Source of the DNA: Actinomyces timonensis DSM 23838
GTDB taxonomy: Bacteria > Actinomycetota > Actinomycetes > Actinomycetales > Actinomycetaceae
Reading direction: 5' to 3'
Length of the DNA stretch: 64,000 nt
NCBI RefSeq assembly: GCF_000295095.1
Contig: NZ_JH806633.1
Location: 237,025 to 301,024, forward strand
Shown in pieces: positions 16,816 to 44,353 of the stretch. Numbering within the stretch: the stretch's first letter is position 1; each line of letters opens with the position of its first letter. Under the pieces are notes generated by a model. It did no database searches, was not told the DNA's origin, and saw only the letters and a list, made by a program, of their open reading frames with translations. Both the position numbers and the translations under genes were made by a program.

Positions 16816-16964
16816 GGGTTCGCGGATCATGCCGGGGGTTCGCGGATCATGCCGGGGGTTCGGGGCGCAGGACGGGGGTTCAGGGCACAGGACGGGGCCG
16901 TTGCCCCCGTCCAGTGGGGGAAGACCCCGGCCAGAGGGGCGAACCCCCGTCCAGAGGACCACGA
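16816..16964. repeat. Second cluster of 20-bp repeats in opposed orientation
   Basis: Four direct 20-bp units (16816-16835, 16836-16855, 16856-16875, 16876-16895) share GGGTTC plus a terminal CGG; the first two are identical. After a 9-nt gap, three 20-bp units (16905-16924, 16925-16944, 16945-16964) share CCCCGTCCAG or CCCCGGCCAG and read as the reverse complement type. The head-to-head layout matches the cluster at 16391 although the sequence differs. Confidence 0.7.
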
Positions 16965-37886: not shown

Positions 37887-38366
37887 ATGGCGGCGGCCAC
37901 CGTCAGGAGGATCGGGATCGCCGCGATCCTGCGCTGGATCGTGGCGTTCGCACTCGGTCTTCTCATTGGCCTCATGGCCTACACCTTCGTGTACGCCAAG
38001 GGTTTTTCCTACCTCAGTAACGACCCGAAGGCCTGCGTCAACTGCCATGTGATGGAGGACCAGTACAAGTCCTGGCAGGCGGGACACCACCGGCACAGCG
38101 CCACCTGCGGCGACTGCCACCTGCCGCATGACAACATCGTCCACAAGTACTGGGTGAAGGCGGAGGACGGCTTCCTCCACGGCCTGAAGTTCACCACCGG
38201 CGACTACCCCGAGAACATCGTCATCCGGGACGTCAACATGGATGTCGCCAATGAGGCCTGCGTGCACTGCCACGCGGACGTCACCGATGACATGCGCCAC
38301 GGGGCCCTCAACCGCAACGAGGTCTACGACTGCGTGCACTGCCATTCCGGGATCGGCCATGAGTAG
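37887..38366 (+). CDS. nrfH: Cytochrome c nitrite reductase small subunit NrfH
   Basis: NrfH is the membrane-anchored NapC/NirT-type cytochrome that passes electrons from menaquinol to NrfA. The 159-residue protein has one N-terminal TM helix (IGIAAILRWIVAFALGLLIG) and four CxxCH heme sites: CVNCH, CGDCH, CVHCH and CVHCH. CVNCHVM retains the Met that ligates heme 1 in the family. ATG 37887 with GGGGAGGGG upstream is chosen; ATG 37818 would add 23 unconserved residues across a G9 tract. nrfA follows immediately. Confidence 0.95.
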   Translation: MAAATVRRIGIAAILRWIVAFALGLLIGLMAYTFVYAKGFSYLSNDPKACVNCHVMEDQYKSWQAGHHRHSATCGDCHLPHDNIVHKYWVKAEDGFLHGLKFTTGDYPENIVIRDVNMDVANEACVHCHADVTDDMRHGALNRNEVYDCVHCHSGIGHE

Positions 38367-38379
38367 AGAGGATCAGGCC

Positions 38380-38536
38380 ATGGACACCGCCGACGAGAGC
38401 TCGAAGGAGCTCGCAGCGGAGGTCGAGCGCGACGGCGCCAAGCGCCCAGCGAAGGACGCGGACTCCGGTGAGGAGGGCCGCAAGCGCTCCTTCTTCGCCG
38501 GGCCCGTGTTCATGGCGCTGCTCGTGGCGCTGGTCC
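38380..38536 (+). other. Displaced N-terminal coding segment of nrfA
   Basis: From ATG 38380 (or 38359, overlapping the nrfH stop) a frame encodes a charged N-terminus and the start of a TM helix (SFFAGPVFMALLVALV), then leaves the nrfA frame because of the 25-bp duplication and ends at 38670. Removing one repeat copy joins it in frame with NrfA. The segment therefore looks like the original N-terminal tail of nrfA. Confidence 0.7.
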
Positions 38537-38560
38537 ATGGCGCTGCTCGTGGCGCTGGTC
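38511..38560. repeat. Perfect 25-bp tandem duplication at the start of nrfA
   Basis: 38511-38535 and 38536-38560 are identical. Because 25 is not a multiple of three, the second copy shifts the frame from the upstream start codons (frame of 38359/38380) into the NrfA frame. It also creates a new in-frame ATG at 38537. Confidence 0.95.
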
Positions 38561-39973
38561 GCCGGGGCGACCTTCGTCGTCACCATGCTGCTCATGAGCA
38601 TCAACAACCACCAGGCCGAGGGCTCACGGGCCTTCTACAACGTCGTGCAGCTCGACGAGACCACCTATGACCCCGCGGTCTGGGGCCAGAACTACCCCAT
38701 CCAGTACGCCGACTACAAGAAGACCGCCGAGTTCACCCCCGCCGAGCACGCGGGCACGATGGTGCCGCAGTCAGTCGAGGGCGACCCCCGCACGGAGGTC
38801 AAGTCCCAGAAGCTGGAGGAGGACCCCCGCCTGAAGGAGATGTGGGCCGGCTACGCCTTCGCCGTGGACTACCGGCACGCGCGCGGGCACGAGTACGCCA
38901 CGATCGACCAGCAGTACACGCTGCGCAATGCCAAGGACCAGCAGCCCGGCACCTGCGCCAACTGCCACGTCTCGGCGCCCGCCCTCTACGACAAGCTCGG
39001 CAACGGCGATCGCGAGGCGGGCTTCGAGGCCACCGGCACGATGAAGCTCTCGCAGGTCCTCTCTGACGACTCGGTGTCGCACCCGGTGGCCTGCATCGAC
39101 TGCCACGACCCCAAGACCATGGATCTGCGGGTCACCCGCCCGTCGTTCATGCGGGGCATCAAAGCCCTCAAGGCCAGCCAGGGCGTGAGCGACTTCAATG
39201 TCAACAAGGACGCCACCCCCCAGGAGATGCGCACCTACGTGTGCGCCCAGTGCCACGTGGAGTACTACTTCAAGGGGGACAACAAGGTCCTGACCTTCCC
39301 CTGGGACAAGGGCATCGACATCGACAACATCTACTCCTACTACCAGGAGCAGGGATTCACCGACTGGACGCATGAGAAGACCGGGGCGCCCATGCTCAAG
39401 GCCCAGCACCCCGAGTTCGACATCTGGTCCAACTCGGTCCACGCGGCCAACGGCGTCGGATGCGCCGACTGCCACATGAACTACAAGCGCGTGGGCTCCG
39501 GCAAGGTCTCCAACCACCACGTCACCACCCCGATGGTGGATGTCAACGCCTCCTGCGGCACCTGCCACAAGACCGGCGACGGCGTCCTGGAGAAGCGCGT
39601 GAGGACGATCCAGTCCAACTTCATCTCCTCGCGCGACCGCGCCTTCGACTCCCTGGTCGGCCTCATCACCGAGCTGGAGGCCGCCAAGACCAACGGCACC
39701 TCGCAGGAGTCGATCACGCTGGCCCAGCAGTACCAGCGCAAGGCGAGCTTCTACCTCGACTACGTGTACTCCGAGAACTCCTACGGCTTCCACGCCCCGG
39801 ACTACGAGCAGAGGATCATCAACCAGGCTGAGAACGCTGCTCAGAACGGCCGGCTGGCGCTGACGGGGAAGACGGAGGAGGAGCTCAAGGAGTCTGATGT
39901 CTCGGCCGCCAATGCCACGCACTACCCGTCTGACAAGGCGGCGACCGGCACGTCCCAAGGCAGCGGCCACTGA
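38537..39973 (+). CDS. nrfA: Ammonia-forming cytochrome c nitrite reductase NrfA (5' frameshifted)
   Basis: NrfA reduces nitrite to ammonium by six electrons outside the membrane. Five CxxCH heme sites are visible: CANCH, CIDCH, CAQCH, CADCH and CGTCH. The first, the active-site heme motif, is CxxCH rather than the common CxxCK. The signatures QCHVEYYF and KAQHPEFDIW are intact. As read, translation can begin at ATG 38537 (MALLVALVAGATFVV, a signal-anchor helix), giving about 478 residues. The original start was probably 38380, separated by a 25-bp duplication that breaks the frame. It lies in an nrfHA operon followed by its maturation genes. Confidence 0.9.
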   Translation: MALLVALVAGATFVVTMLLMSINNHQAEGSRAFYNVVQLDETTYDPAVWGQNYPIQYADYKKTAEFTPAEHAGTMVPQSVEGDPRTEVKSQKLEEDPRLKEMWAGYAFAVDYRHARGHEYATIDQQYTLRNAKDQQPGTCANCHVSAPALYDKLGNGDREAGFEATGTMKLSQVLSDDSVSHPVACIDCHDPKTMDLRVTRPSFMRGIKALKASQGVSDFNVNKDATPQEMRTYVCAQCHVEYYFKGDNKVLTFPWDKGIDIDNIYSYYQEQGFTDWTHEKTGAPMLKAQHPEFDIWSNSVHAANGVGCADCHMNYKRVGSGKVSNHHVTTPMVDVNASCGTCHKTGDGVLEKRVRTIQSNFISSRDRAFDSLVGLITELEAAKTNGTSQESITLAQQYQRKASFYLDYVYSENSYGFHAPDYEQRIINQAENAAQNGRLALTGKTEEELKESDVSAANATHYPSDKAATGTSQGSGH

Positions 39974-40929
39974 TGGCGGGCGCTGGGGACAGCGGTGCCC
40001 GGGGCGACGCCCCCGCGCCGGATGATGACCGCGTCCGCCGAGTCCGCGAGCTTCTCGATGAGTTGAGCCCGCAGGAGCGCCAGGCGCTCCTGCGGGCGGA
40101 GGACGAGCCCGAGGATGCTGGGACCGGCGCGGAGGACAGCTCCGGGCGCGCCGCGAAGCGCGGGTCGAAGAGCTCCCAGGAGGACGTCGCGGGCGGCGCC
40201 AGCGCCGCCGAGTCGGAGGACGAGGACGAGTCCGACGCCTTCTACGCCGGCCTGGAGGAGGACGACGACCTCATCGGCTCCAAGCTCGCCTCGCGCCGCG
40301 CAAAGCGGGGCAAAGGCGAGAACAAGGACTCCGAGTCCGCGCCGAGGCGGCGGGCGCCCCTGTCGAGCGCGGAGCGCATCGCGCTCGTCGCCGCGGTCAT
40401 CCTCGGCATCGCGGCAGCGATCTGGTACAGCAACGTCGGGGGACTCTCCTCCGGCTCGCCCCATGGGGGCGCGATGGCCAGCGCGCGGGCCGAGTCCACC
40501 GAGCGGGGCACGGGGGAGTGGGCGGAGGAGATCTCCAGTCTCGAGGCGCAGATCAAGGCCGACCCCACGAACCTCGACCTGAAGATCAGGCTCGGCGAGG
40601 CCTACGCCGGTCTTGGGGACTACGACCGGGCGATCGAGACGATCCAGGGCGTCGCCGACGAGAACCCGAGCAAGGCGGAGGCCTGGTACGACCTCGGCTT
40701 CCTCCACCTGCAGACCTCCTCTCCCGACGAGGCCGCCTCCAAGGCCGCCTGGCAGAAGGTCATCGATCTCGACCCCGATTCGGAACTGGCTGGCAAGGCC
40801 CGCACGCATATGGACACCCTCGCCTCGCAGGGGGCGGGCCAGCAAGGCTCCGCTGGCATGCCGCCGGGGCATCCCGCCATGCCGGGCTCCGGCGCGACTC
40901 CTGCCGCTTCGAGCGGGAATGGGCAGTGA
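39973..40929 (+). CDS. TPR-repeat membrane protein, cytochrome c maturation helper
   Basis: A 318-residue protein with a long acidic, low-complexity N-terminal cytoplasmic half (about 1-130), one TM helix (about 135-155; AERIALVAAVILGIAAAIWY) and tetratricopeptide repeats facing outward (about 180-275; DLKIRLGEAYAGLGDYDRAI, EAWYDLGFLHLQ), followed by a Pro/Gly tail. The layout resembles CcmI/NrfG-type TPR chaperones that present apocytochromes for heme attachment. ATG overlaps the nrfA stop. Its position between nrfA and the System II genes supports a role in NrfA maturation; there is no direct proof. Confidence 0.8.
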   Translation: MAGAGDSGARGDAPAPDDDRVRRVRELLDELSPQERQALLRAEDEPEDAGTGAEDSSGRAAKRGSKSSQEDVAGGASAAESEDEDESDAFYAGLEEDDDLIGSKLASRRAKRGKGENKDSESAPRRRAPLSSAERIALVAAVILGIAAAIWYSNVGGLSSGSPHGGAMASARAESTERGTGEWAEEISSLEAQIKADPTNLDLKIRLGEAYAGLGDYDRAIETIQGVADENPSKAEAWYDLGFLHLQTSSPDEAASKAAWQKVIDLDPDSELAGKARTHMDTLASQGAGQQGSAGMPPGHPAMPGSGATPAASSGNGQ

Positions 40930-41753
40930 TGACGTCCGTCTCCATCCCCGTCGCTCTGCTCGCGGGCCTCATGGCCTTCGCCTCGCCCTGCTTCCTGCCC
41001 CTGGTGCCCGCTCTCCTCGCCCACCTCGCCGGGCGCGGGAGCGCCGCCGCGGCGGAGATCCCCTCACTGCGCCGCGCCCCCGTGATCACCAGCCGCGACC
41101 TCGGTCGTCCGGCGGGCGGCGGCGCGGCGGTCGCCCTGGCCCGCCCGGGGGGCGGCGAGGCCGCTCGCCCCGCCCCGCCCCGGGTCATCCTCAACGCCAG
41201 TGCCTTCGTCCTCGGCTTCTCCGCCGTGTTCGTGGGGCTGTGGGCGCTCATCGTCTCCGGCGCCGTCGCCCTGGGCCCCCACCGCCAGACCCTGCGCCTC
41301 GTGGGCGGGGCCCTGCTCGTTGTCATGGGACTGCACACCGTCGGGCTGCTGCGCATCGCGCTCCTGGACCGCGCCCTGGGCGGCGGCCTCGGCGACACCG
41401 GCCGCCCCGGTAGGGGAGCGACCCCCGCCAGCTCACTGCTCATGGGCGTCGGCTTCGCGCTCGGCTGGTCGCCCTGCATCGGCCCGGTGCTCGGCGCGAT
41501 CATCGCGCTCGCCTCGCAAACCGCCTCCGCCTGGCAGGGACTCGCGCTCATGATCGTGTTCTGCGCCGGGCTCGGCGCGCCCGTGATCGTCCTGGCCCTG
41601 GGCATCGACCGCGCCGCGACCAGGACGGCATGGCTGCGCGCCCACGGCCGCGCCATCCGGCTCGCCTCAGGAATCCTGCTCATCGCCGTCGGGGCGCTGA
41701 TGGACATGGACCTGCTGGCGCCGCTCTCCGGCCTCGTGAGCACCCCACTATGA
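40929..41753 (+). CDS. ccdA: Cytochrome c biogenesis protein CcdA
   Basis: CcdA carries reducing equivalents across the membrane to keep apocytochrome cysteines reduced. The 274-residue polytopic protein has both redox cysteines in ASPCFLPLVPA (about 18-28) and GWSPCIGPVLG. Six or so TM helices are visible, with an Ala/Gly/Arg-rich loop (about 35-85) longer than in typical CcdA. ATG 40929 overlaps the stop of the TPR gene. It feeds the ResA-like thioredoxin three genes downstream. Confidence 0.93.
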   Translation: MTSVSIPVALLAGLMAFASPCFLPLVPALLAHLAGRGSAAAAEIPSLRRAPVITSRDLGRPAGGGAAVALARPGGGEAARPAPPRVILNASAFVLGFSAVFVGLWALIVSGAVALGPHRQTLRLVGGALLVVMGLHTVGLLRIALLDRALGGGLGDTGRPGRGATPASSLLMGVGFALGWSPCIGPVLGAIIALASQTASAWQGLALMIVFCAGLGAPVIVLALGIDRAATRTAWLRAHGRAIRLASGILLIAVGALMDMDLLAPLSGLVSTPL

Positions 41754-41763
41754 GGAGGACTCC

Positions 41764-43422
41764 ATGACAGACAAGGAATCCAAGGCCGCCGCGGGCTCGA
41801 CAGGCACTGAGCGGGCGGCCGAGGTCACCGCGCCCGATATCAGCGGTGGTGAGCGGGATGTGCCGGTCGTCGAGCTGTTCCTGTGGCTCTACCGGCTCTT
41901 CTACTCCAAGACCCTCGGCCTGACGGTCATCCTCCTGTTCGCTGTCTACGCCTTCATCGGCTCGCTCCTGCCGCAGGCGACGAAGGAAGTCCTGGCCGAC
42001 CCGTGGGCCAAGGAGGCGTTCCTCAATGCCAGGCGCCCCGCGCTCGGCAAGATGACGACGGCCCTCGACGCGCTGGGCCTCTTCCACGTCTTCACATCCA
42101 TCGGCTTCTACGTGGTGGTCTCGCTGCTCGCCCTGAGCATCATCGCCTGCACGGTCCACCGCATCCCCGAGCTGGTCAAGCGGGAGAAGGAGCCCCGGGT
42201 GCATGTCGCCCCCAGGTTCTTCGACAAGGCCCGCTACCGCGCGCGCATCCCCAGCGCCCACGGGGTCCACAGCTCCCTGGAGGAGACCCGCGAGGCCCTG
42301 CGACGCGCCCGCTGGCGGGTGATCCCGGATGACCGCGACCCCGAGCACTGCCTCTACGCCGACCGCAACGCGCGCTCGGGCATCGGCACCGTCCTGGCGC
42401 ACACGGCCTTTGTCCTCATCCTGGGCGCGTTCGTCGTCTCCTCCACCTGGGGCATCGAGGAAGACCTCACCGTCCCCGTCGGAACCAGTGTCGAGATCGG
42501 CCATGGGACGGGGCTGAGCGTCCGCGCCAACTCCTTCACCGACTCCTACACCGACACCGGGCAGGCCATGGACTACATGTCCGACCTGAGCATCCTGCGC
42601 GGTGGCGAGGAGGTCGCCCGCCAGGAGGTGCGGGTCAACTCGCCGATGTCAATCGACGGCTACAGGCTTCACCAGGCCTCCTACGGGACGTCGGCGGATG
42701 TCACCATCGCGGACGCCGCGGGGACCGTCCTCGCCCAGCGCAGCGTGCCGCTCCAGTGGCAGACCCCGCGGAAGACCGAGGTCTATGGGCGCGTCGACCT
42801 GCCCGACGGCAGGGTGGTGTACGTGTTCCTGCCAGCCTCGGGGCAGGCGATGTCCGAGATCGCTCCCGGGACCGCCATCTTCGCCCTGGCCCCCGATGGC
42901 CACACCGACCCCCAGTCCGAGCAGCGGGCCGAGGCCGGGACCGCCGCCCAGCTCGAGGACCTCACCGTCACCTTTGACCGGGAGCGCCAGTACACGGCCC
43001 TCACCCTCCGCCATGACCCGGGCACCCCGATCATGTGGATCGCCTCGGCGCTGCTGATGATCGGGATGTCGATCACCTTCCTCATGCCCTACCGGCGCCT
43101 GTGGGTGAGGGTTGAGCCCGACGGCGAGAATGGCTCGGGCAGCGTCGTCCGCCTCGGCTCGGTCTCGCGCCTCGACATCACCTTCGAGCGGATGTTCGCC
43201 ACGCTCGTCGGGCGCATCGAGGACGCCGTCGCCTCGCAGGACGCTCCTGAGGCGTCGGAGGACTCCGACGAGCCCCCGGACCCCGGGGAGTCATCCGACG
43301 TGGCAGGATCGTCCCCGTCCGAGGAGCCCGCCGGCCCCGACAGTGACGCCGGGTCCAAGGGCCCCGATCCCGCCACCAGAGCCAAGGAGAGCAAGGAGAA
43401 GGAGCCCAGCGACCATGAATAA
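41764..43422 (+). CDS. resB: Cytochrome c biogenesis protein ResB
   Basis: ResB (Ccs1) with CcsB forms the System II heme export and ligation complex. The 552-residue protein has the N-terminal TM segments (YSKTLGLTVILLFAVYAFIGSLLPQ, VFTSIGFYVVVSLLALSIIACTVHRIPEL), a third TM (VLAHTAFVLILGAFVVS), and a large outer domain ending with a fourth TM (MWIASALLMIGMSITFLMP). The C-terminal ~90 residues are acidic and low-complexity. The stop overlaps ccsB by 8 bp. Ten base pairs separate it from ccdA, with GAGGACTCC before the ATG. Confidence 0.95.
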   Translation: MTDKESKAAAGSTGTERAAEVTAPDISGGERDVPVVELFLWLYRLFYSKTLGLTVILLFAVYAFIGSLLPQATKEVLADPWAKEAFLNARRPALGKMTTALDALGLFHVFTSIGFYVVVSLLALSIIACTVHRIPELVKREKEPRVHVAPRFFDKARYRARIPSAHGVHSSLEETREALRRARWRVIPDDRDPEHCLYADRNARSGIGTVLAHTAFVLILGAFVVSSTWGIEEDLTVPVGTSVEIGHGTGLSVRANSFTDSYTDTGQAMDYMSDLSILRGGEEVARQEVRVNSPMSIDGYRLHQASYGTSADVTIADAAGTVLAQRSVPLQWQTPRKTEVYGRVDLPDGRVVYVFLPASGQAMSEIAPGTAIFALAPDGHTDPQSEQRAEAGTAAQLEDLTVTFDRERQYTALTLRHDPGTPIMWIASALLMIGMSITFLMPYRRLWVRVEPDGENGSGSVVRLGSVSRLDITFERMFATLVGRIEDAVASQDAPEASEDSDEPPDPGESSDVAGSSPSEEPAGPDSDAGSKGPDPATRAKESKEKEPSDHE

Positions 43423-44353
43423 TGTTCTCTCCATCGGTCAGTTCCTCCTGACCTCCGCCATGGCGATCCTCGTCCTCGCCGTCGTCTGCGACGCCGTCGT
43501 CCTCACCGGGCGCGGGGCGCGGGCCCAGGCCATCCCCGCCATGGCGGGCGGGGCGCGCGGTGACACCGCCCATGGCAAGGGGCGGGGGAGCGGCGCGACC
43601 CACTCGGCCCACTGGGCGCGCGCCTCACGGCCGGGCCTGCCCAAGGGGCTCGCGCTGTATGCCACCGGGTTCACGGCGATCGCCCTGGTGCTCATCACCG
43701 CCTACCTGGTGCTGCGCACCAGCGCCTCGGGATACAGCCCCTTCGCCAACCAGCACGAGTTCGCGGTGTCCTTCACCTTCGGCATCCTGCTCATGTACCT
43801 CATCGCCGAGTTCCGCTACCGCGTGCGCTGGCTGTCCGTCGTCGTCCTCCCGGTGGTCGTCGCCCTGCTCATCTACGCCAACAGCCAGGACAAGGCGATC
43901 AAGCCCCTCGTCCCCGCGCTGCGCAACTCCCTCATGCTGACGCTCCATGTGTTCTTCGCGGTGCTGGCCTACGGGGCAGCCTGCGTGTCCTTCGCGGCGG
44001 CGATCCTCTACCTCCTCCACCCCCACCTGAAGAGGTTCCGGTCCCTGCCCTCGCGCGAGGTCCTCGACGACGTCGGCTACAAGGCCGCCACCGCCACCTT
44101 CCCCCTGCTGACCATGATGACCGTCCTGGGCGCCGTCTGGGCGAACACCGCCTGGGGCCGCTACTGGGGATGGGACCCCAAGGAGACCGCCGCCCTCGTG
44201 ACCTGGCTGGTCTACGGCGCGTACCTCCATGCCAGGGTGACAAGGGGATGGCAGGGCTCGCGAAGCGCCTGGCTCCTCATCCTCGGATTCAGCGCGGTGC
44301 TCTTCGCGTACTTCGGAAACCACTTCTTCGGAGGGCTGCACTCCTATGGCTGA
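43415..44353 (+). CDS. ccsB: Cytochrome c biogenesis protein CcsB (ResC)
   Basis: CcsB/CcsA is the heme-handling core of System II. The 312-residue polytopic protein has the WWD-type signature WGRYWGWDPKETAALVTWL (about 248-266) that binds exported heme, and conserved histidines in LHVFFAVLAY and near the C-terminus (FGNHFFGGLHSYG). ATG 43415 overlaps the resB stop by 8 bp. A Gly/Arg/His-rich loop (about 40-70) is unusual relative to the family. The stop overlaps the ResA-like gene by 8 bp. Confidence 0.95.
   Translation: MNNVLSIGQFLLTSAMAILVLAVVCDAVVLTGRGARAQAIPAMAGGARGDTAHGKGRGSGATHSAHWARASRPGLPKGLALYATGFTAIALVLITAYLVLRTSASGYSPFANQHEFAVSFTFGILLMYLIAEFRYRVRWLSVVVLPVVVALLIYANSQDKAIKPLVPALRNSLMLTLHVFFAVLAYGAACVSFAAAILYLLHPHLKRFRSLPSREVLDDVGYKAATATFPLLTMMTVLGAVWANTAWGRYWGWDPKETAALVTWLVYGAYLHARVTRGWQGSRSAWLLILGFSAVLFAYFGNHFFGGLHSYG

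Follow-up and report, generated by a model that had tools for sequence, protein, structure and literature searches.

In this study, we describe a perfect 25-bp tandem duplication within the membrane-anchor codons of nrfA in Actinomyces timonensis DSM 23838, which separates the usual start of the gene from the body of the enzyme by a change of reading frame. Our analysis of a 64,000-nt stretch of DNA (the window) establishes the duplication, its derived state, the resulting frame break and an intact, constrained gene body. The probable explanation, in our view, is that nrfA recently lost its function through a mutation specific to this lineage or strain.

Results

The duplication consists of two identical units on the forward strand, the first at 38511..38535 and the second at 38536..38560. 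Tandem Repeats Finder (TRF) reported a period of 25, 2.0 copies and 100% matches, and an exact scan agreed, so that the perfect 25-bp tandem duplication proposed at 38511-38560 by the first-pass annotation is borne out. The array lies 3′ of nrfH, in the codons of the first membrane helix of nrfA. As a null model, first-order Markov simulations of the 64,000-nt window were scanned for units of 10-60 bp; across 100 simulations every perfect two-copy tandem had a unit of 10, 11 or 12 bp, and in 50 simulations identity runs at offsets 10-60 reached 17 at most. Because simulated perfect tandems never exceed a 12-bp unit, a chance origin is excluded. At the breakpoint, the flanks in the window sequence share no extra base and so show no microhomology, and microhomology slippage was rejected as the origin given exactly 2.0 copies and no additional shared base. 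An internal 12-bp similarity within the repeat was likewise set aside, as it cannot yield a 25-bp step. Since 25 mod 3 = 1, loss or gain of a unit alters the reading frame.

The consequences for nrfA follow from its two frames. The frame of ATG 38359/38380 terminates at the stop at 38668-38670, while in the NrfA frame a stop at 38360-38362 is followed by open sequence from 38363 to the end of that frame at 39973. The usual start region of the gene (38380..38670, forward strand), encoding the charged tail and the beginning of the membrane helix, ends early at 38670, and the tail that begins at ATG 38380 is in a different frame from the NrfA body (38561-39973); a full-length NrfA product cannot be read from a single frame in this genome. 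Programmed or stop-codon frameshifting as a means of joining both frames was rejected: it would require a +1 shift in the ATG 38380 frame, and on reaching the stop (UGA then C) ribosomes would already have translated about 44 codons in the wrong frame across the helix. On reading the nrfA sequence and frames we saw no classical slippery site, and a scan for promoters and terminators found nothing.

Downstream of the array, the nrfA body (38561..39973, forward strand) is intact. NrfA is defined by five CxxC(H/K) haem motifs, and the translation carries CANCH, CIDCH, CAQCH, CADCH and CGTCH. The body matches Cytochrom_C552 (PF02335) at 398.9 bits (cut-off 24.1), and its best PDB match is the NrfA of 2j7a (E 4.4e-60). 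It is adjoined by the NrfH partner: nrfH, encoding the small subunit, is intact at 37887..38366 on the forward strand, with the start picked by its Shine-Dalgarno energy (-11.9 kcal/mol, the unit used throughout), and scores 156.6 bits against TIGR03153 (cut-off 134.2; scored from 37818). Scores against two NCBIfam models fall below their cut-offs (PRK11125, equivalog, 291.6 vs 595; TIGR03152, exception, 231.5 vs 692.5), and the assignment as NrfA is made on domain, partner and structure match, not on PRK11125/TIGR03152 membership. With the NrfHA complex of PDB 2j7a the locus shares the nrfH-nrfA pair, the Cytochrom_C552 domain and the five haem motifs; it differs in that NrfA here has a hydrophobic N-terminal segment, broken in frame. 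Pairwise dN/dS of the body between the window and its relatives was 0.130, 0.142 and 0.159 with 0 stops, next to 0.137, 0.203 and 0.201 among the relatives themselves. Because the body is intact and dN/dS low, these values indicate that either the duplication is recent or nrfA is still functional. The NIR_SIR domain (PF01077) had 0 matches in this genome, the control having matched in 11/14 genomes, and NrfA is, by this test, therefore the sole candidate for an ammonifying nitrite reductase.

The genes that follow are also on the forward strand. A TPR protein gene (39973..40929) begins at an ATG overlapping the stop codon of nrfA (TGATG), and its Shine-Dalgarno energy is weak (-4.1); it may be translationally coupled to nrfA. 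Because of this overlap and weak Shine-Dalgarno, and because nrfA stops early, the frameshift may be polar on the TPR gene and lower its translation. Cytochrome c maturation genes, recognised by domain matches, occupy 40929..44353: DsbD_TM (CcdA-like, 40929-41753), ResB (41764-43422) and Cytochrom_C_asm (CcsA-like, ending at 44353). The CcdA-like and ResB genes align to three relatives and contain no stops.

Other tandem arrays were observed in these genomes. Apparently intergenic 20-bp arrays with related units occur at two places in the genome, one at window positions 16816-16862 and the other at L175 16753-16794, which is the same place as L123 3753-3794. Several arrays of 19-22 bp were also seen in the sample of the relative G033, together with an exact 2.0-copy 23-bp tandem overlapping long ORFs on both strands (L134, 6225-6270).

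Distribution of nrfA in the genus is patchy (20/49 genomes, this one included). Only three of the 48 other genus genomes (G004, G036 and G033, with 94, 93 and 92% identity) aligned over the whole segment, the remaining matches being short and weak; all three belong to species other than that of the window. In each of them the 25-bp segment is single-copy, nrfA is read in a single frame that starts at the conserved ATG next to nrfH and encodes 524 residues, and no perfect tandem with a unit of at least 10 bp is present in 16 kb around the gene. The earlier claim that the duplication frameshifts nrfA is upheld by this comparison, and because the segment is single and the frame open in all three closest relatives, the duplication is the derived state. 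The window NrfA tail is identical to those of L002, L003 and L004 at 34/52, 32/52 and 35/52 residues. More widely, among 24 other genomes with nrfA, 23 were scorable at the N-terminus, and all 23 carry, in the same frame, a basic segment before the helix with at least 2 K/R in the preceding 15 residues. Relatives whose NrfA naturally begins at the second-copy Met, a possibility raised by the first-pass annotation, were not seen among them.

Three translation starts are relevant to what can still be made from the locus, and their Shine-Dalgarno energies may be set against a background median of -3.7 (25% quantile -6.2; 10% quantile -8.4). The conserved ATG 38380 is the strongest at -10.1. The ATG at 38537..38539 (forward strand), which had been proposed as a replacement start supplied by the second copy, is indeed in the NrfA frame; its Shine-Dalgarno energy of -2.9 is, however, weaker than the background median and its product would have no basic residue before the helix, which makes it unlikely as a working start. 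An in-frame start overlooked in that proposal, the GTG at 38468..38470 (forward strand), has an energy of -7.4 and opens an ORF of 501 aa (38468-39973) in the shifted NrfA frame, with 4 Arg ahead of the helix and a best hydrophobic window (KD 2.52) the same as that of the NrfA of relative locus L002. We regard GTG 38468 as a moderate candidate, and weak residual NrfA expression in the two-copy state is possible.

A second gene that appears to be broken was found in the preceding step of the pathway. The narG of this genome, examined because of its pathway relevance, is split into two frames on contig C3 near 351570, minus strand (L142), by a one-base difference from close relatives that lies outside any homopolymer or repeat; the three closest relatives each have narG in one frame. 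The adjoining NarH, NarJ and NarI score above the cut-offs of their families; a narK-like gene is in one frame, with a score below its cut-off. Across the genus, narG is over the cut-off in 39/49 genomes and split in three, namely this genome, G018 and G046 (2/41 other genus genomes with narG). In the latter two (G018 C1:828603-832299 and G046 C1:992534-996242) narG extends over several frames, with loss and sequencing error both being candidate causes.

To place these breaks in context, assembly quality was surveyed by comparison with relatives. A first comparison flagged 11/59 stretches as multi-frame, including nrfA and narG. A Pfam scan of nine proteins (seven of the 11 flagged stretches and two unflagged ones) found no domain in 6/7 of the flagged set, an outcome consistent with antisense shadow frames, though not proof of them. 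In the remaining protein, cytochrome bd oxidase subunit I, the domain starts at residue 200, past the off-frame part. The other four flagged stretches are nrfA, narG, rne (off-frame part before ATG 35063) and L169 3301-3803. When the survey was restricted to frames with coding-type substitutions, two of 96 coding stretches (114 kb) were flagged against G033, narG and one in L177, where the off-frame part precedes the judged gene start; narG is thus judged the only credible break. The reverse comparison, G033 against this genome, flagged 0/104, and controls between relatives flagged 0/41, 0/40 and 1/46. The restricted survey does not flag nrfA, whose tail is short and weakly conserved, and it undercounts lesions near gene starts and ends. 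A generally error-ridden assembly was rejected on these results. Within the window, 50 kb aligned to the three relatives contained 18 window-specific indels not divisible by 3. Three of them fall within a coding match, 90 bp or more from its ends: at two the match continues in a single frame, and the other is the nrfA duplication. The indel at 38511 is the only one of the 18 that breaks a coding match.

Discussion

Among the three options put forward by the first-pass annotation, a recent mutation fits best, with identical copies, an intact and constrained body, and no array in three relatives. The extra 25 bp among the codons for the membrane helix would have arisen during replication or repair. 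As this length is not divisible by 3, ribosomes that initiate at ATG 38380 would read the tail and half of the helix and then out-of-frame sequence to the stop at 38670, and NrfA would be made little or not at all. Together, the nrfA and narG lesions would mean that this isolate has recently lost the route from nitrate to ammonium, presumably through relaxed selection in a host or in culture. At the surveyed rates, joint breakage of both genes by coincidence appears unlikely, yet this is suggestive only, because narG was selected on account of the pathway, because 2/41 other genus genomes with narG also have it split, and because lesions at gene ends, that of nrfA included, escape the survey. 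Some observations speak against loss. GTG 38468 offers an anchor with 4 Arg, so some NrfA activity may remain; the single-base lesion in narG could be a sequencing error, and so, less easily, could the duplication; and low dN/dS would equally fit an nrfA that is still functional.

The last point bears on the possibility that NrfA is still made from a downstream in-frame start, GTG 38468 or ATG 38537, as a functional enzyme with an altered N-terminus and perhaps at a lower level. No stop interrupts the NrfA frame after 38363, the body is under purifying selection, and GTG 38468 combines a Shine-Dalgarno energy between the 10% and 25% background quantiles with a hydrophobic segment matching that of L002's NrfA and preceded by arginines. 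This start would nevertheless sit beneath ribosome traffic from the stronger ATG 38380, and its leader is translated in a frame other than the one that relatives use there. ATG 38537 has no recognisable Shine-Dalgarno, and it would omit the basic residues kept before the helix in 23/23 relatives. We consider continued production of a functional NrfA from either start unlikely.

An error of assembly or sequencing, in the duplication itself or in its number of copies, seems improbable. The assembly is in 4 contigs, and there is a second frame break, the one-base break in narG, which would be in keeping with error. Against this, an exact 25-bp tandem is, to our knowledge, not a usual type of error, and a 50-bp array fits within one short read. 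The surveys point the same way: narG was the sole credible break in 114 kb, nothing was flagged in the reverse direction, and only the nrfA duplication among the non-3-divisible indels breaks a coding match.

Phase variation, in which two copies would be OFF and one ON through slipped-strand mispairing or recombination, with a subpopulation keeping nitrite ammonification, is in our estimation quite improbable. The geometry would permit it, as one-copy relatives have an open frame, and there is precedent: spontaneous, reversible tandem sequence duplication is cited for pneumococcal capsule genes (Waite et al. 2001, 2003, as cited in PMC4243769), in titles that report phase variation, at high frequency in that of 2001. 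By comparison with these capsule genes, as far as such citations convey them, the nrfA case comes from one assembly and concerns a metabolic gene, and reversion is not part of its record. Simple-sequence contingency loci, as in Neisseria and Campylobacter, likewise alter a reading frame by a change in repeat number, but they consist of single bases or short units repeated many times, whereas nrfA has two 25-bp copies only, and the three relatives, albeit of other species, are single-copy without an array. The tandem-repeat phase variation of M. tuberculosis (PMC12817950) resembles nrfA in involving copy-number repeats of tens of bp in an actinobacterium; those repeats are in a promoter and show subpopulations in deep reads, while the nrfA repeat is coding and known from one assembly. 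Further, narG, the preceding step, is broken by a one-base, non-repeat lesion, which favours loss over switching. A combined version, in which the duplication is a reversible switch of nitrite ammonification and cells with two copies make a little NrfA, with a different anchor, from GTG 38468, is very improbable, and for the duplication as a maintained switch there is no positive evidence.

In a non-exhaustive literature search we found no published account of this nrfA lesion, and little on short tandem duplications as reversible inactivation. PMC5406005 deals with narG presence in Corynebacterium and with checking frameshifts against reads, not with a narG frameshift. Revertible null mutations caused by tandem duplication within a gene are already known; the present case adds another gene and another organism.

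Conclusion

If the recent loss of nrfA function is real, this isolate cannot, or barely can, convert nitrite to ammonium, and it is probably unable to respire nitrate too. The nrfA lesion, a perfect repeat, would in principle be easily reverted by dropping one copy and the narG lesion would not, so that the pair gives a direct test of loss versus switching. Annotation by gene content would still list nrfHA and narGHJI, and inferring the pathway from gene presence alone would be risky.
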